NCBI GenBank assembly: GCA_021646465.1
Contig: SOET01000024.1
Coordinates: forward strand, 1 to 64,000
Direction: 5' to 3'
DNA from: Candidatus Kuenenia hertensis
GTDB lineage: Bacteria; Planctomycetota; Brocadiia; Brocadiales; Brocadiaceae
DNA length: 64,000 nt
Shown in pieces: positions 12,239-42,771 of the stretch; position 1 is the stretch's first letter; every line of letters starts with the position of its first letter. The notes beneath the pieces are model-generated. The model had not been told where the DNA came from. It saw only the letters and a program-made list of their open reading frames with translations, and ran no database searches. The translations under genes were made by a program, and so were the position numbers.

Positions 12239-12948
12239 TTTTCCCTCTCCCTAAATATTTGGATACTTAAAAAAATAATTCGCCAAGCTAAACAGACACA
12301 ACAATATAATTCCCTAAACCGCCATCCAACAATTCTAGAAATTTACAGAAAGCTTCTCCACTACATAAACATTACCGCTGTAAATCATTTTGCTTTACCA
12401 CACCTTATGCTAACCATTGCACGAAAAAACAAGGGAAAAGAGGCATGGCCTCACGACAGGAAAATCCTGAAACGCCTCCCCCCAGCCTTATCTTCCCTTA
12501 TTCTCCAAAATATTTTCTCCGCTTAAATACTGCTGTCATCAATAAAAACAAAATAACCACGCACCACTACTGCTTTATTAACGCTTAAAGCCAACTGCAA
12601 GTCTTGCATTTGTACATGACACAACATATACGAAAAATATACCAACACCACCCAAAAAAACAAAAAACCTTTTTCAATTCACGTAACACCTATAATTGCA
12701 AGTAGTTATAAAAAGAATAACGGTATAATTATTAAAATTAATTGTTTAAGGACAAGCATTAAAAACATTCCATAATGCAATAGCAATTTCAGTATGAAAT
12801 AATTCTGGTGTTTTTTGCCTGTTTTGATTATTTCCTTTTTTTTATTATTTTGGCTTGCTTATGTCGACAAATTAAGGGGTTGCGGAACATTTTTCCATAA
12901 TTTTATCCATTACTTACCATGTAGATTACTGTTTAGCCACAAAAAAAA
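12239..12948. other. 710-bp gap, no gene found
   Basis: The stretch is AT-rich with many stops in all frames. It contains two small hairpins at about 12440-12470 (GAGGC-ATG-GCCTC and CAGGA-AAA-TCCTG), in a conserved-looking C-rich patch that matches no RNA class I recognise. It probably holds the HPP promoter and the leaderless 3' side of the surface-protein transcript. Confidence 0.5.
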
Positions 12949-12978
12949 CTCCCATTCCCTCTTTCGAGAGAATGGGAG
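12949..12978 (-). terminator. intrinsic terminator of the surface-protein gene
   Basis: Nine-base arms CTCCCATTC and GAATGGGAG with further pairing inside the loop are followed on the minus strand by eight T. It lies about 50 bp beyond the stop of the PT-rich surface-protein gene. Confidence 0.85.
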
Positions 12979-13028
12979 CAGGTTATCCATTCGATTTTAA
13001 TTACATTTCCATGTCTAATTCTTACCTT

Positions 13029-14201
13029 CTATTTTTTCCCTTTGCCTTTGCCTTTGCCTTTGTCTTTACCCTTATTGTCATCGTCATCATCATAGTCTTC
13101 GTCTTCATCATCGTCGTCGTCGTCACCATCATCGTCTTTTCCTTTTTTACTTCCCTTTATCTTAACGGTATCGCTTCCTTCAAATTTCGTACCGTCTGAC
13201 AGTTCTCCAGTGATAGTAAACTCGACATTTTCCGATTCATTTGTTTTTAAATCTGAATCTACCTCCAAATCTTTGATATTAAATTTGACCTTCAGTTTGT
13301 CCTCTTTTTCATCACATTTCCATGCAACTGCACCTTCGCACACTACCGTTTCACACACTATATCGCCTAAGTCATAAGAAGAGGGAAGTTTTATATAGGC
13401 AATAAATTTCCCGTTGCTATGGAGATTAATCGTCCTCGACTGAAAACTCACATCAGCCTCTATTACCGAAGGCGCTGACGGTGTTGCGGTGGGAGTTGCT
13501 GAAGGTTCTGTTGGTGTTGCCGCAGGTGTTGCAGTAACCGCAGGAGTTGCAGACGGCGTTGGCGTAGGTGATGTTACGACTTCCTCAATCAAACCTCCAG
13601 GAACCAATAATTCAACAGCATCCACAGACAAAGATGCCGAAGCATTTGAAACAGGCGTTGCGCTCGGCGTAACAGTTGCGGTTGGCATTGCAACGGGCGA
13701 AGTTGTTGGAGTTGGAGACACCGTTGCAACAGGGGTTGGAGATGTTGCCGACGAAGGCGAGGCAGTAACCACCGGAGAAGGAGTCGGAGTTCCCGGAGGA
13801 GTAACCTCTTCGGTAATAACAACATTTACAATCTCCAGTTTAACGCCCACTTGAAGTCCCAAATCCTCTTCTACCAATGCCATTCCTTCTTCAATCTCAA
13901 AAGGAAACTCATACGTCTCTACAACATCATTCACTTCAGTTTCAATAACCAAGGTACATGTTTTATTGGTATACAATTGTGAATCCAGATACATTAAATC
14001 AACTATTGATAATTTTACTTTTCCGTTTTTGTCTATTTCAACGCTTGCATCTAATTTGCTTTCATCATACGAGATTGAATCGTTTACGGTCAGGCTGGAT
14101 TCATAAAGGGTATCAGCGCCTTCTCCCTCCGCGGCAAATGCCAAACTAATGCCTGAAAATACCAACGCCCACACAAATAAAACCAATTTACTTTTCATCA
14201 T
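13029..14201 (-). CDS. secreted Pro/Thr-rich surface protein with acidic repeat tail
   Basis: The product (about 390 residues) has a signal peptide (MMKSKLVLFVWALVFSGISLAFAA). Two beta-rich segments are separated by long PTP/ATP-rich linkers, as in many exported planctomycete proteins. A third segment follows at about residues 245-345 (VSFQSRTINLHSNGKFIAYI). The last about 50 residues are a low-complexity Asp/Glu run and then KGKGKG repeats, a strongly acidic-then-basic tail. I recognise no enzyme domain; a cell-surface or matrix structural role is inferred. GGAGG lies four and seven bases before two adjacent ATGs, so the GTG at 14216 is not the start. A c-di-GMP riboswitch and terminator in its leader point to control by c-di-GMP. 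Confidence 0.8.
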   Translation of the reverse strand: MMKSKLVLFVWALVFSGISLAFAAEGEGADTLYESSLTVNDSISYDESKLDASVEIDKNGKVKLSIVDLMYLDSQLYTNKTCTLVIETEVNDVVETYEFPFEIEEGMALVEEDLGLQVGVKLEIVNVVITEEVTPPGTPTPSPVVTASPSSATSPTPVATVSPTPTTSPVAMPTATVTPSATPVSNASASLSVDAVELLVPGGLIEEVVTSPTPTPSATPAVTATPAATPTEPSATPTATPSAPSVIEADVSFQSRTINLHSNGKFIAYIKLPSSYDLGDIVCETVVCEGAVAWKCDEKEDKLKVKFNIKDLEVDSDLKTNESENVEFTITGELSDGTKFEGSDTVKIKGSKKGKDDDGDDDDDDEDEDYDDDDDNKGKDKGKGKGKGKK

Positions 14202-14263
14202 TTTTCCTCCTTTCACAAAATTTTCAGAAAATAAATAACCTATTTTTCACATTTGTAAAATAA

Positions 14264-14302
14264 AAAGACCCAAGACAATGTATCACATCGCCTTGGGTCT
14301 TT
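14264..14302 (-). terminator. leader terminator, likely riboswitch expression platform
   Basis: Eleven-base arms (AAAGACCCAAG with CTTGGGTCTTT) are followed on the minus strand by TTATTTT. The structure lies between the c-di-GMP aptamer and the surface-protein start. Its 5' arm AAGACCC is complementary to GGGTCTT inside the aptamer (14488-14494), so the two could exchange pairing. It could also simply end the sat transcript. Confidence 0.7.
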
Positions 14303-14439
14303 GGTTTTCTTAAAAGCCTGTTAAATTTCACAAAACGCAATCAATAAAATATCAATATTTACAGAAGGAATTTGCTGACCAGCGTAACAAATCCTTTAGA
14401 AATAAAATATCCCATTGATTCTCGCCTTCTCAATGTTAA

Positions 14440-14541
14440 GCTTTTACACCTTTACAGGTGGCAACCTGGCATTCTTCCCCGAAAAAGAAGACCCATGGCT
14501 TTGCGTCCCAACCTCACGATTGGTTTGCCGTTATATATATA
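14440..14541 (-). ncRNA. cyclic-di-GMP-I (GEMM) riboswitch aptamer
   Basis: Read on the minus strand, the segment from 14530 contains GGCAAACC, a short hairpin, then GGGACGCAAAGCC, then a second hairpin closed by TCTTC/GAAGA, then TGCCAGGTTGCC. These are the conserved blocks, in order, of the GEMM-I class (GGGCAAACC, GGGACGCAAAGCC, and the 3' GGTAGC-like block). This class binds c-di-GMP. The only same-strand gene below it is the secreted PT-rich protein starting at 14201. A promoter lies just upstream at 14548-14575. Confidence 0.87.
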
Positions 14542-14547
14542 TATCTA

Positions 14548-14575
14548 TCTATACCAAAATGATTCTGTTAGTCAA
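14548..14575 (-). promoter_or_regulatory. promoter upstream of the c-di-GMP riboswitch
   Basis: On the minus strand TTGACT (14570-14575) and TATAGA (14548-14553) are spaced by 16 bases. Transcription would start near 14541, immediately before the aptamer, giving a leader of about 340 nt. Confidence 0.7.
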
Positions 14576-14604
14576 GAAAATTATCGTCATATTGAAACAT
14601 TAAC

Positions 14605-15774
14605 TTACCGTGTACTCTGATAATATTCACTTAATACCTTTGCAACTTCTGACCTTGTAAAGGTAGGAGGAGGCGCTTCTCCCTCGCTTAACATTCTTCT
14701 CACCTCGGTACCACTTAAGATGACATGGTTTGCCGAATCATGGGGACAAGTCTTATAAGACGCCATACCATTGCACGCTTTACAATAGAAAGTATGGTCA
14801 AAAAAGAGAGGGGTAATTCCTATTTCATGCGCATCAAATTCATCGAATATGTAATGCGCATCAAACGTTCCGTAATAGCTGCCAACTCCCGCATGGTCCC
14901 TTCCTACAATAAAATGCGTGCAACCATAATTTTTTCTTAACAATGCGTGGAAAATTGCTTCACGGGGACCCGCATATCTCATTGCAGCAGGAAAAACCGA
15001 TAACATCGCACGGTCTTTCGGATAATATTTATCCAAAAGAATTTCATAACTTTTGATCCTGACATCCGCAGGGATATCATCGCTTTTTGTCGCTCCAACG
15101 AGTGGGTGCAAAAGGATTGCATCAACAATCTCAAGGGCACATTTTTGAATATATTCATGTGCGCGGTGAACGGGATTACGCGTCTGAAAACCGACAATTC
15201 TCTTCCAGCCTTTTTTTACAAATAACTCCCTCGTTTCAGCAGGGTCTAGTCTGTAAGCAAGAAAATCGTTGGGTTTTGCCCTGTTGACGACGGTTACTTT
15301 GCCGCCAAGAAGATAATCATCCATTTTGCAGACATAATCAACACCGGGGTGTTTTTTGTCGTCCGTTCCATATACCTCCAGCGATTCTTTTGTTTTATCG
15401 TGATGAAATATTTCTTCCAGATGCAATATGGCAATTACTTCATTTGCTTTATCGATAAGGGCAACGTCATTCCCGGGTTTAAGTCCTTCAATTTCCTCCC
15501 TGGCTGCTGATAATGTAATGGGGATGGACCACGGAAGCCCGTTTGCCAGCCTCATGTTATCCACAACGTTATCATAATCTTCTTTGCACATGAACCCCTC
15601 GAGCGGACTCATTGCTCCAACAGCAATCATATCAAGGTCTGTTATTTCGCGGGAATCGAGCTGGATTTTTTTCATATCGTAATTTGTCGCTTTGTCAAAC
15701 AGCACTTCTCTCTCTTCCGCTGAGGCTATCCGATTTATAAGTTTACCACCATGTGGAGGGATATTCTTGACCAT
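14605..15774 (-). CDS. sat: sulfate adenylyltransferase (ATP sulfurylase)
   Basis: Sat interconverts sulfate plus ATP and APS plus pyrophosphate. The active-site motifs are [11 protein letters not shown] (197-207) and GRDHAG (291-296). The cysteines CKAC (331-334) and C343 with a nearby His form the zinc site of prokaryotic dissimilatory-type Sat. At 389 residues it is a normal single-domain homo-oligomeric enzyme with no APS kinase domain. It is last in aprA-aprB-sat on the minus strand, so APS made or used here is handled by the adjacent APS reductase. AAGGAG lies about 12 bases before the ATG. Confidence 0.95.
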
Positions 15775-15891
15775 GGTTCACTCTTTCTCCTTTCAAAACC
15801 TTCTAAATATGTGTGATTTCACCATAAAATTAAAGGGCAATCGAGAAAAGCCCCGTTACCGTTTTTTCATTTTCTGTGAATGCAGATAAAA

Positions 15892-16209
15892 TTAATTCCG
15901 TGCCTTTATAATAAATTCTTCTTTTTCTCCCTGCGAATTCCAAATTGACCAGATTGTTTTATCCTTTGTCAATCGTGCTTTTAACGAGGCGCTGTTACTA
16001 CATATCTGGAACGGCAATCTCAATTCTATTGCCTGAACGGGACATTCTTTCACACAACATGCACACGTCCAGCATGCCGATTGATCACGTATTTCCGCTT
16101 TCATATTTTTATTGCGATAGCACAGATTCCCGGGACATATGCGTTCACAGCGCGCTTCAGGCAATCCTTTGCAGCCATTGCATATTGTTTTATCGATAAA
16201 AATACTCAT
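15892..16209 (-). CDS. aprB: adenylylsulfate reductase beta subunit, short ferredoxin form
   Basis: The 105-residue iron-sulfur protein holds two 4Fe-4S motifs: ICNGCKG with CERICP at the N-terminus, and CWTCACCVKECP at about residues 46-57. It passes electrons to the FAD of AprA. Sulfate-reducer AprB proteins are longer (about 150 residues) with a C-terminal tail wrapping AprA. This one has the short ferredoxin-like form known from assimilatory-type loci such as those of clostridia. Its ATG overlaps the aprA stop by one base. Confidence 0.85.
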   Translation of the reverse strand: MSIFIDKTICNGCKGLPEARCERICPGNLCYRNKNMKAEIRDQSACWTCACCVKECPVQAIELRLPFQICSNSASLKARLTKDKTIWSIWNSQGEKEEFIIKARN

Positions 16210-17882
16210 TATTGTAAGGGCCGTTCTATCATTTTTATTTCATTTGTTTCGATATCATAGACTGAATTAACATACTTCAGCCAGTGTTCATCATCTTTTT
16301 GGGGATAATCCCATCTGGTTTGATAACACGCCCATCGTGTCTCTTTTCGGTACATGAGATGTTCCACCAATGTCCTGGCAACATCAATTCTGTCAATACA
16401 TTCCAACGCTTCCACCAGGTTGTAATTATCTACAGCCATTACTTCATTTGTATGTTTGTGTAAGCATTGCAACAATTGCCGCGCTTCCAATAATCTGTTT
16501 TCATGCAACATATAATTAAAGGAAATCCCGCCGGCATATTCATCCATAATTTTTTGAAGCCGTTCTCTCGCATCCAATGGCGTTATCCCGATAGTCCGGT
16601 TTAATATGCCGGATAACCTGGATTTTTCCTTTTCAATAATAGCTCCATCAATATCGGTTGTCGATGTATCATCAATATCATTCAGCGCCGTTGATGCCGC
16701 AATTGCACCTTCAACCCAACATCCGCTGACATATTTTTTCGGAGCGCCACCCGCAGATTCACCGGCAGCATAAAGTCCTGGAATGGTGGTTCTTCTCTCC
16801 GTATCGACCCAATACCCTGCCTGGCAATGGCCACCCACAACATAAGGTTCCGTACCGCGTATTTCCACTGGTTTCTTACGCGGCCCCATACCGTTGCTTG
16901 CCCAAAGAAGAACTATTTGAGGATTCATATTCAAATAATCTTCTTTTAATTGTTTTTCTTCTTCATCGTTCAGGTTCGTTGTATCAAGGTAACACGGCCC
17001 ACGACACGCCTTCATTTCCTCCAATGTGGCAAAGAGTCTATATTGGGTCAAACATTTTCTTCCACCCAAATGCTGATAGTGACAGCCAAGGTAGTCTTCT
17101 CCGAGGGCATTTACCTGTTTTGAATAGACACCGACAGCAATGGTACCTGTAGGGGCATTGACATCCTTTACGCGCAAAGGGATAAACCTGTTCTCAAAAC
17201 TTGTCATTTCAGCGCCAATACGAATTCCCATGGCATACCCGGTTCCGGCATTCCAAGGACAATACCACATTAAATGCCGAGCCCCCCCGGTATTGATAGG
17301 TTTATATATTCCGGAAGCCCCTCCCGTAGAAACAATAACGGCTTTTGCCCTTATTACGTATAAGCAGTTATCTCTGACACCATAGCCAAAGGCCCCGCAT
17401 ACCTTTTTTCCATCATAAATGAAATTTGTCGCAACAACACGATTCAGCACCTTGGCGGTCGTTTTCATAACCGCTTCCGCAAGAATAGGCTTCAGCCGCT
17501 CGCCAAAAATACGAACACTGCGCGACCCCCTTTTTTTGTATGTACCATCATCATTTTTTTCGATGGGTAATCCTAACGCCTCAACTTCCTTAACCACTTC
17601 ATTTAATCTTTTCGCAATGGTGAGTACTAAATCTTTTCTTATAACTCCTTCAAACTCCCTATCTACAAAATCAACATACGATTCCGGGGTTTGTTCGGGA
17701 TGGATATACGCATTGATAGCATTGAGCCCCATTGCCAAACAACCGCTACGTTCAATATGCGCCTTTTCCATAACAACCACTTTGCAACGGGGTGATTTTT
17801 TATAAACTTGCAGTGCTGCAAAGCAGCCTGCAGCGCCACCTCCAATTATTAATATGTCTGTTTCTATGTACTTAATATCCAT
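16209..17882 (-). CDS. aprA: adenylylsulfate reductase alpha subunit
   Basis: AprA is the FAD subunit that reduces APS to sulfite and AMP, or runs in reverse in sulfide oxidisers. The N-terminal FAD motif is DILIIGGGAAGCFAALQ. GGASGIYKP, YCPWNAGTGYAMGIRIGAEM, GLYAAGESAGGAPKKYVSG and the C-terminal TRWACYQTRWDYP are APS reductase rather than fumarate reductase features. At 557 residues it is about 100 shorter than dissimilatory AprA, again pointing to the short, probably assimilatory, type. It is first in aprA-aprB-sat, with a promoter about 190 bp upstream. Confidence 0.88.
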   Translation of the reverse strand: MDIKYIETDILIIGGGAAGCFAALQVYKKSPRCKVVVMEKAHIERSGCLAMGLNAINAYIHPEQTPESYVDFVDREFEGVIRKDLVLTIAKRLNEVVKEVEALGLPIEKNDDGTYKKRGSRSVRIFGERLKPILAEAVMKTTAKVLNRVVATNFIYDGKKVCGAFGYGVRDNCLYVIRAKAVIVSTGGASGIYKPINTGGARHLMWYCPWNAGTGYAMGIRIGAEMTSFENRFIPLRVKDVNAPTGTIAVGVYSKQVNALGEDYLGCHYQHLGGRKCLTQYRLFATLEEMKACRGPCYLDTTNLNDEEEKQLKEDYLNMNPQIVLLWASNGMGPRKKPVEIRGTEPYVVGGHCQAGYWVDTERRTTIPGLYAAGESAGGAPKKYVSGCWVEGAIAASTALNDIDDTSTTDIDGAIIEKEKSRLSGILNRTIGITPLDARERLQKIMDEYAGGISFNYMLHENRLLEARQLLQCLHKHTNEVMAVDNYNLVEALECIDRIDVARTLVEHLMYRKETRWACYQTRWDYPQKDDEHWLKYVNSVYDIETNEIKMIERPLQ

Positions 17883-41226: not shown

Positions 41227-42771
41227 TTATTTTGTATTATTCACTAATAAGGAGAAGAGCCGTTTCCAATTATTATGCCCGTCTACAATCTCAGCGCCTA
41301 TTTCGTATCTGTTTTTATGAATTGTTCTGTTATGGGCAATTCTGATTGAAAAAACAGCAGGAATGTGAACTTCAGAATCAACAACGGCTCTGCAGGTATA
41401 TATTTCGTCTAATTTTGGTTTAAAATTGAGTTCCCCTTTGAACCCCCCGTTGCTGATATCTCCTATTGCGCAAATTCTCCAGTCATCTTCCGTTACTTTG
41501 ATTTCAAAAAACTGTATATTATTAATACCTTTATCAACCCTCAACAGTGTCTTGTGTCTGTTAATCTGCCTGTTTACATTTTTGTAAAGAAGCAGATTAA
41601 TTTCTTCCCTGTTTAACAATGCGCTATATTTTGCTTTTTTGTCCTGTTGCAGGGGTTGATTATCCAGTGTAGTATTGACAACCCGGTTACGTCCGCATGA
41701 TTTGCCTATATAAAGATATTTATCAGCGGTGGATAATATCTGTTTCACGGAATCTCCGTCCACAGGATAAGCGGCTACTCCGGCAGTTATTGTTACACAT
41801 TCAATTTTTCCGTTAGCAGTTTCCAGCGACAATATTCTTTTTACCGTTTCCCTGAGTTTGTCAATGACGATGGTAGCGCTGCCCTTGTCCATGTCGGGAA
41901 GGAGTATTGCGAATTCTTCTCCGCCATATCTGCTCACAATATCACTGTATCGAACATTGGATTTCAGGATATAGGCTAATTTTTTTAAAATTTCATCACC
42001 AAACAAATGCCCATAGGTGTCGTTGTAGTATTTAAAATAATCTATATCAATCATAGCGATTGAAAAATTCAGGTTATGACGTATTGCTTTACTAAACTCG
42101 AGCTGACAACTATCAAAAAAATATTTTCTTTGATAAAGCATGGTAAGGTCATCATACATTGCTCCTTTTTCTGCTTTTTCGTAAAGCTCAATCCTTTCAA
42201 TGGTATTTGCAATATTCAACGCTACCGTAGTAAGTAATTCCTTGTCTTCTTCGGTAAATGCATTTATTTCTCTTTTGTGTATATTTAACAATCCCAGTAT
42301 TCTGTTATTTTTTGATTGTAGCGGTAAAGACAGAAATGTTCCGGTATTTTCCAGTTTACCTTTATAAAACAACTGGTTGTTTTTCTTGCTTATGTCGTTT
42401 AATAGGAGAGGGTCCCCTGTCTGGGCAGCAATGCAAGAATATTCTTCGCCTTTTTTAAAGGTTAAATCTTTAGCGGCGTCAAAAACATCACTTCCTGTTT
42501 TGGAGATCGTTAATTCATCATTATCTCCATGATTCAGCATGAAGCAGAAGTCTTTAATATCAAGATTGTTCTTAAAAAAACTTGTCGTGTATTCAAATAG
42601 CTCGTCAAGTTTTGTTGATAAATTCAAGTTTTCGTTTAACAAGTAAAGCAGATAGGCACTTTCACTGGTTTTGTTCGTTGCATTAATATCAGTACTACAT
42701 TTCTTGTAATGGCGATTGTATTTGTTTAATAGCATATTTTTGTTTACCAAAAAATTGTTACTACAGCACAC
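41227..42771 (-). CDS. GAF-GGDEF-PilZ diguanylate cyclase
   Basis: A GAF sensor spans about residues 35-195. The GGDEF domain (about 200-365) has the active signature GGEEF at 283-287 and the inhibitory site RYSD at 274-277, five residues before it. A PilZ-like domain ends the protein, with DISNGGF as its (D/N)xSxxG motif. It should make c-di-GMP from GTP, be inhibited by its product at the I-site, and may bind it again through the C-terminal domain. It is first in a minus-strand run (cyclase, methyltransferase, PilZ) and is divergent from the HD-GYP phosphodiesterase. Confidence 0.88.
   Translation of the reverse strand: MCCSNNFLVNKNMLLNKYNRHYKKCSTDINATNKTSESAYLLYLLNENLNLSTKLDELFEYTTSFFKNNLDIKDFCFMLNHGDNDELTISKTGSDVFDAAKDLTFKKGEEYSCIAAQTGDPLLLNDISKKNNQLFYKGKLENTGTFLSLPLQSKNNRILGLLNIHKREINAFTEEDKELLTTVALNIANTIERIELYEKAEKGAMYDDLTMLYQRKYFFDSCQLEFSKAIRHNLNFSIAMIDIDYFKYYNDTYGHLFGDEILKKLAYILKSNVRYSDIVSRYGGEEFAILLPDMDKGSATIVIDKLRETVKRILSLETANGKIECVTITAGVAAYPVDGDSVKQILSTADKYLYIGKSCGRNRVVNTTLDNQPLQQDKKAKYSALLNREEINLLLYKNVNRQINRHKTLLRVDKGINNIQFFEIKVTEDDWRICAIGDISNGGFKGELNFKPKLDEIYTCRAVVDSEVHIPAVFSIRIAHNRTIHKNRYEIGAEIVDGHNNWKRLFSLLVNNTK

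Follow-up and report, generated by a model that had tools for sequence, protein, structure and literature searches.

What controls the gene for a 390-residue secreted protein at 13029..14201 (minus strand, ATG at 14201) in the 64,000-nucleotide window that we analysed, and does the controlling signal turn it on or off? Reading the minus strand from 14575 to 14199, we found promoter-like hexamers, an aptamer, an intrinsic terminator and a ribosome site in that order, the in-line anatomy described by the original prediction, and these elements are kept in this genome (G000) and in the two others of its genus (G019 and G020). We consider it probable that this Kuenenia-like anammox bacterium uses a transcriptional c-di-GMP-I OFF riboswitch to govern a secreted surface protein with two domains. 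The original prediction was supported in part; it did not give the polarity, the missing 5’ P1 strand and associated hairpin, the long spacer fold or the set of such switches across the family.

The promoter, TTGACT-16-TATAGA (14548..14575, minus strand), ends its -10 box 18 nt before aptamer base G20 and is conserved in the three orthologous leaders, as are TTCTTGACTAA and the -10 region. It was missed by a consensus scanner that demands T at position 6 of the -10 box. We predict a transcript start near 14541, either within J1/2 of the aptamer or immediately before it. At the other end of the leader, a Shine-Dalgarno sequence, GGAGG (14206..14210, minus strand), was read directly from the DNA.

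We identified the c-di-GMP-I aptamer at 14538-14456 (minus strand), the single Rfam family match within the window, with a score of 64.1 bits for RF01051 (E 4.9e-12 with the whole genome searched; gathering cut-off 35 bits), in agreement with the class first proposed. The limits given earlier, 14440-14541, do contain the aptamer; they also include a hairpin at 14460-14447, which proved important. Helix P2 occupies 14528-14503 and P3 about 14500-14462 (both minus strand). Numbered as for Vc2 in PMC3764141 and PMC11218506, the ligand-contact positions read from the alignment, G20 (14529), A47 (14502) and C92 (14461), are all canonical, so that the expected ligand is c-di-GMP, which the RNA probably binds. 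All other core bases are retained in three species. RF01051 aptamers form P1 from their 5’ and 3’ ends, with G14-C93 at its apex; here C93 has no 5’ partner. With P2, P3 and the contact bases intact and P1 atypical, we class the aptamer as a variant of RF01051, not a typical member.

The terminator (14264..14302, minus strand) pairs over 18 bp and is followed by TTATTTT, with some 55 nt separating it from the ribosome site. Two terminator-like sites were found in 12900-14700, compared with 1.2 +/- 1.1 in shuffled sequences, this one having 18 pairs. Its 5’ arm carries AAGACCCA (14301-14294), an 8-bp complement of UGGGUCUU (14495-14488, minus strand) in the 5’ strand of P3; the 7 bp of antiterminator claimed originally fall inside this match. 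Between aptamer and terminator lies a spacer of about 136 nt (14311..14446, minus strand), bracketed by UAAAAGC (14446-14440) and GCUUUUA (14317-14311), which folds as one long hairpin with folding z-scores of -5.0, -4.8 and -2.8 in three orthologues and a consensus fold holding four pairs with two-sided changes. We think that this arm shortens the distance from one half of the antiterminator to the other. The genome contains this spacer only once, ruling out a mobile or repeated element.

The pairing of P3 with the terminator recurs across the family. The CC-type aptamers carry (C)AUGGGUCUU or a near match as the 5’ strand of P3, and the terminator 5’ arm contains AAGACCC or a close equivalent. 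All 24 CC-type aptamers tabulated, each with a terminator containing CCC, can pair UGGGU... of P3 with the 5’ arm of that terminator in a single register, the same as here, over 5-10 bp (mean 8.5), although the orthologue in G020 has only 5 contiguous bp. This one-register recurrence rules out chance complementarity. Shuffling the terminators among paralogues gave a nearly equal mean (8.33 +/- 0.11, p 0.16), indicating that the pairing is conserved rather than covarying, and that its recurrence could partly reflect shared descent. In a further genus (G024), the orthologue is preceded by a tandem riboswitch whose first copy has an 11-bp match of P3 to the terminator. We additionally identified a second platform type, with AAAGGGUCUU in P3, in which the aptamer 3’ strand GCCUUACUGC enters the terminator, implying the opposite polarity. 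Three GAAA-loop aptamers (L021, L022 and L023, genus g6) are followed by CAGCACUUC, whose possible pairing with GGAGGUGCUG at the ribosome site would apparently give translational control.

What takes the place of the missing P1 strand? Most aptamers of the family form the C93-G14 pair over a J1/2 of 5 nt, following Vc2, and their P1 is often short or interrupted. We found eight aptamers without a usable 5’ P1 strand, all in the genus of this genome (g1): the present aptamer and its orthologues (L050, L051 and L052), L102, L119, L120 and the orthologous pair L010/L097. In all eight, which are promoter-proximal and span five gene contexts, C93 instead forms a hairpin with downstream sequence, six of them with short loops, at stacking energies of -6.5 to -12.3 kcal/mol. 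At this locus the hairpin is CACCU-GUAA-AGGUG (14447..14460, minus strand), starting exactly at C93 (14460), and the stems differ between loci (CACCU/AGGUG, CACC/GGUG, CGCCUU/AAGGUG, CGCCAUA/UAUGGUG and CAGUAAUAAG/UUUAUUGCUG). A promoter scan placed the end of the -10 box 9-18 nt before G20 in seven of the eight; at L120 the scan picked another site, and alignment places the -10 about 13 nt before G20. Where a first aptamer has a canonical P1 and its promoter is clear, that promoter mostly lies 28-47 nt upstream, L001 being an exception with a weak call at 8 nt. With the -10 box so close to G20, the first transcribed base probably falls within J1/2 or immediately before it, at the point where a circular permutant would be cut open, and in all eight P1-less aptamers transcription should start within J1/2.

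We therefore propose, at about an even chance, a natural circularly permuted riboswitch aptamer, in which a P1 strand is supplied from the 3’ side, the old ends are looped together and the RNA starts inside J1/2. A circular permutant keeps all core strands in rotated order, with its old ends joined by a loop and its new ends inside the fold; the strand order and the predicted start at this locus agree with such an arrangement. The permutation would have arisen in the Kuenenia-like genus as promoters shifted up against the aptamer, and would have been tolerated because these OFF switches are read out through P3, not P1. Each of the eight couples its OFF switching to P3, leaving P1 outside the readout, which is consistent with permutation without proving it.

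Slightly short of an even chance, in our estimate, is a competing explanation that bears on the P1 stand-in alone: the hairpin at 14460-14447 may be fortuitous or merely structural, in an RNA that needs no P1 or is a decayed, non-binding aptamer. Hairpins anchored at C93 of -6 kcal/mol or better, with loops of at most 35 nt, also occur in 5 of 36 other CC-type aptamers, covariation is slight (one two-sided change over six sequences), and shuffling gives p values per locus of only 0.004-0.13 at the short-loop loci. The eight loci may be paralogues of one ancestor. Set against this are the presence of the hairpin in every P1-less aptamer, in several gene contexts, and the retention of the other core bases, which argues against decay. 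Outside the genus, the pattern GGTTGCCRN{4,26}GGTGTAA gave scattered matches comparable to a reversed control, and among the best matches located in other planctomycetes, 20 of 22 start with a canonical P1.

For polarity, the recurrence of the same kind of P3/terminator pairing at 24 loci makes an OFF switch most likely. RNA polymerase would start about 10 nt before G20; P2 and P3 would fold, and C93 would close the local hairpin standing in for P1. With c-di-GMP bound, P3 would retain UGGGUCUU, the terminator would form and the gene would be off. With no ligand, the self-folded spacer arm would bring UGGGUCUU beside AAGACCCA as the arm emerges, and the antiterminator would pair before the terminator 3’ arm is made, leaving the gene on. 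ViennaRNA folding of this locus, modelled without ligand, gave the antiterminator a probability of 0.95 in transcripts ending before the terminator 3’ arm and 0.00 once that arm was present, which supports a kinetic OFF switch. Two counterpoints should be weighed. The spacer is long for a kinetic antiterminator, and within the flanks examined we found no riboswitch upstream of homologues from Brocadia and from other genera, nor upstream of the additional copy that this genome carries, suggesting that the control is lineage-specific.

It is unlikely that c-di-GMP activates the surface protein instead, the ligand aiding read-through or the platform acting on the ribosome site. ON-type and apparently translational platforms do exist among riboswitches of the same family, and mixed transcription-translation control is known in Bc1 (PMC11218506), but the alternative pairing here is held by P3, not by P1 or the 3’ strand, and a strong terminator precedes the ribosome site. 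A change of ligand, at which the best cmscan name for the aptamer, c-di-GMP-I-GGC (RF03167, 59.8 bits, E 1.3e-11 over 64 kb, 0.8 bit above its cut-off of 59), might hint after winning the clan competition, is very improbable and was rejected, since RF01051 gives more bits and the aptamer reads GGGACGCAAAG where the model reads GGGACGCGAAG (GCAAA against GCGAA), leaving A47 as canonical as G20 and C92 in place of the G of a variant whose name we read as G20/G47/C92. The preferred reading is accordingly the c-di-GMP OFF switch. The predicted repression at high c-di-GMP argues against a simple ‘matrix on’ logic, and is the opposite of the factor switched on for granule growth that had been envisaged.

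The target protein, from an alignment of 18 sequences and AlphaFold2, comprises a signal peptide, a predicted beta-sandwich domain (31-131), a Pro/Thr linker, a second predicted beta-sandwich domain (246-349) and an Asp-rich tail with a basic end. Its gene is followed by a terminator (12948..12979, minus strand) and looks monocistronic. As anticipated for a secreted, unclassified protein, it has no Pfam match. The 18 homologues, among them L052 as entered with a truncation of about 30 residues, can be aligned along most of their sequence, sharing both domains and the linker, and in most cases the tail. Within the variable linker, the motif LVPGG (residues about 199-203) is strongly conserved, possibly as a processing or binding site. 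The AlphaFold2 model has a mean pLDDT of 62 and finds generic Ig-like matches only, with none in PDB or among viral folds at E below 0.001; nucleoplasmin sequence matches at E 0.005 covered only the first domain and were not trusted. The C-terminal domain also occurs at the end of larger secreted repeat proteins, and is present in archaea. A crude rule for signal peptides marked 25 of 31 CC-type targets and 13 of 25 other targets as apparently exported, compared with 7 of 28 genes in the window. A surface role is likely for the protein, and a matrix role is a guess. It is a new kind of target for a known riboswitch class, with the riboswitch upstream in 3/3 genomes of the genus and in the tandem arrangement of the further genus.

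The host is an anammox bacterium, as had been supposed: we identified hydrazine synthase alpha (PF18582, E 1.7e-25) in its genome, whose relatives in the family include Candidatus Brocadia. The genome has 25 GGDEF matches, indicating that the host can make c-di-GMP. RF01051 matches were found in 33/33 genomes of the family, with 18 in this genome and 56 in a Brocadia-group genome (G006), and planctomycetes outside the family have 0-5 per genome among the genomes listed, in a phylum sample under stricter filters. We thus observe an expansion of c-di-GMP-I riboswitches in the anammox family, reaching 56 per genome, with both predicted polarities. We found no published description of c-di-GMP riboswitches in anammox bacteria in a search that covered few subscription journals.

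Several further arrangements were observed. Triple tandem c-di-GMP-I aptamers, the third degenerate (40 bits), precede the gene of a secreted beta-helix protein that contains a chondroitinase-B domain (L173, 1-7619, in G000:C5), and aptamers of both platform types stand ahead of ten prepilin-like (GFTLIE) genes (L002, L025, L029, L043, L044, L046, L049, L096, L098 and L103). In G020, a GGDEF gene on the same strand sits some 0.8 kb upstream of the riboswitch-controlled surface gene (L169, 804-1676). Some riboswitches also precede GGDEF domains encoded on the same strand (L089 with G020:C1:1230016, and L014 with G000:C24:13364), which suggests feedback on c-di-GMP synthesis. The window itself encodes a GGDEF domain within a 515-residue open frame (41683-42162, minus strand), and ATP sulfurylase, a 4Fe-4S protein and an FAD/fumarate-reductase-like protein in a row (14605-17882, minus strand), resembling a sat-aprBA block.

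Work cited in PMC8851195 (Guo et al. 2017) has already linked c-di-GMP to anammox aggregation. RNA switches, 18 here and 56 in one Brocadia-group relative, would now tie the signal to concrete anammox surface genes, and which surface genes are off and which on at high c-di-GMP becomes testable. Among anammox surface and matrix proteins, the target is likened by description only to BROSI_A1236, an abundant protein with predicted Ig-like beta-sandwich folds; at 390 residues it differs from that S-layer protein of 170-200 kDa (PMC7482068, PMC10202920).

The riboswitch shares with RF01051 the P2/P3 core, the GNRA loop, the three contact bases and a transcription terminator platform, and differs in lacking the 5’ P1 strand, in pairing C93 downstream and in a predicted transcript start in or next to J1/2. 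With RF03167 it has in common the overall fold and the G before C92. Bc1 of Bacillus thuringiensis (PMC11218506) likewise combines a c-di-GMP-I aptamer with a long expression platform (about 220 nt) and termination, although it uses dual terminators where one terminator and a folded spacer arm are found here. Engineered biosensors with permuted riboswitch aptamers (Truong et al. 2018, as cited in PMC10085705) offer a designed counterpart to the candidate natural case. The natural circularly permuted RNAs listed in 2023, namely hammerhead and twister ribozymes, 5S rRNA and group II introns (PMC10085705), similarly keep the same core in rotated strand order; that list includes no riboswitch, and by it the present layout is so far unreported for a natural one. 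If the permutation is true, it would show that a ligand-binding pocket, too, survives strand rotation in nature.
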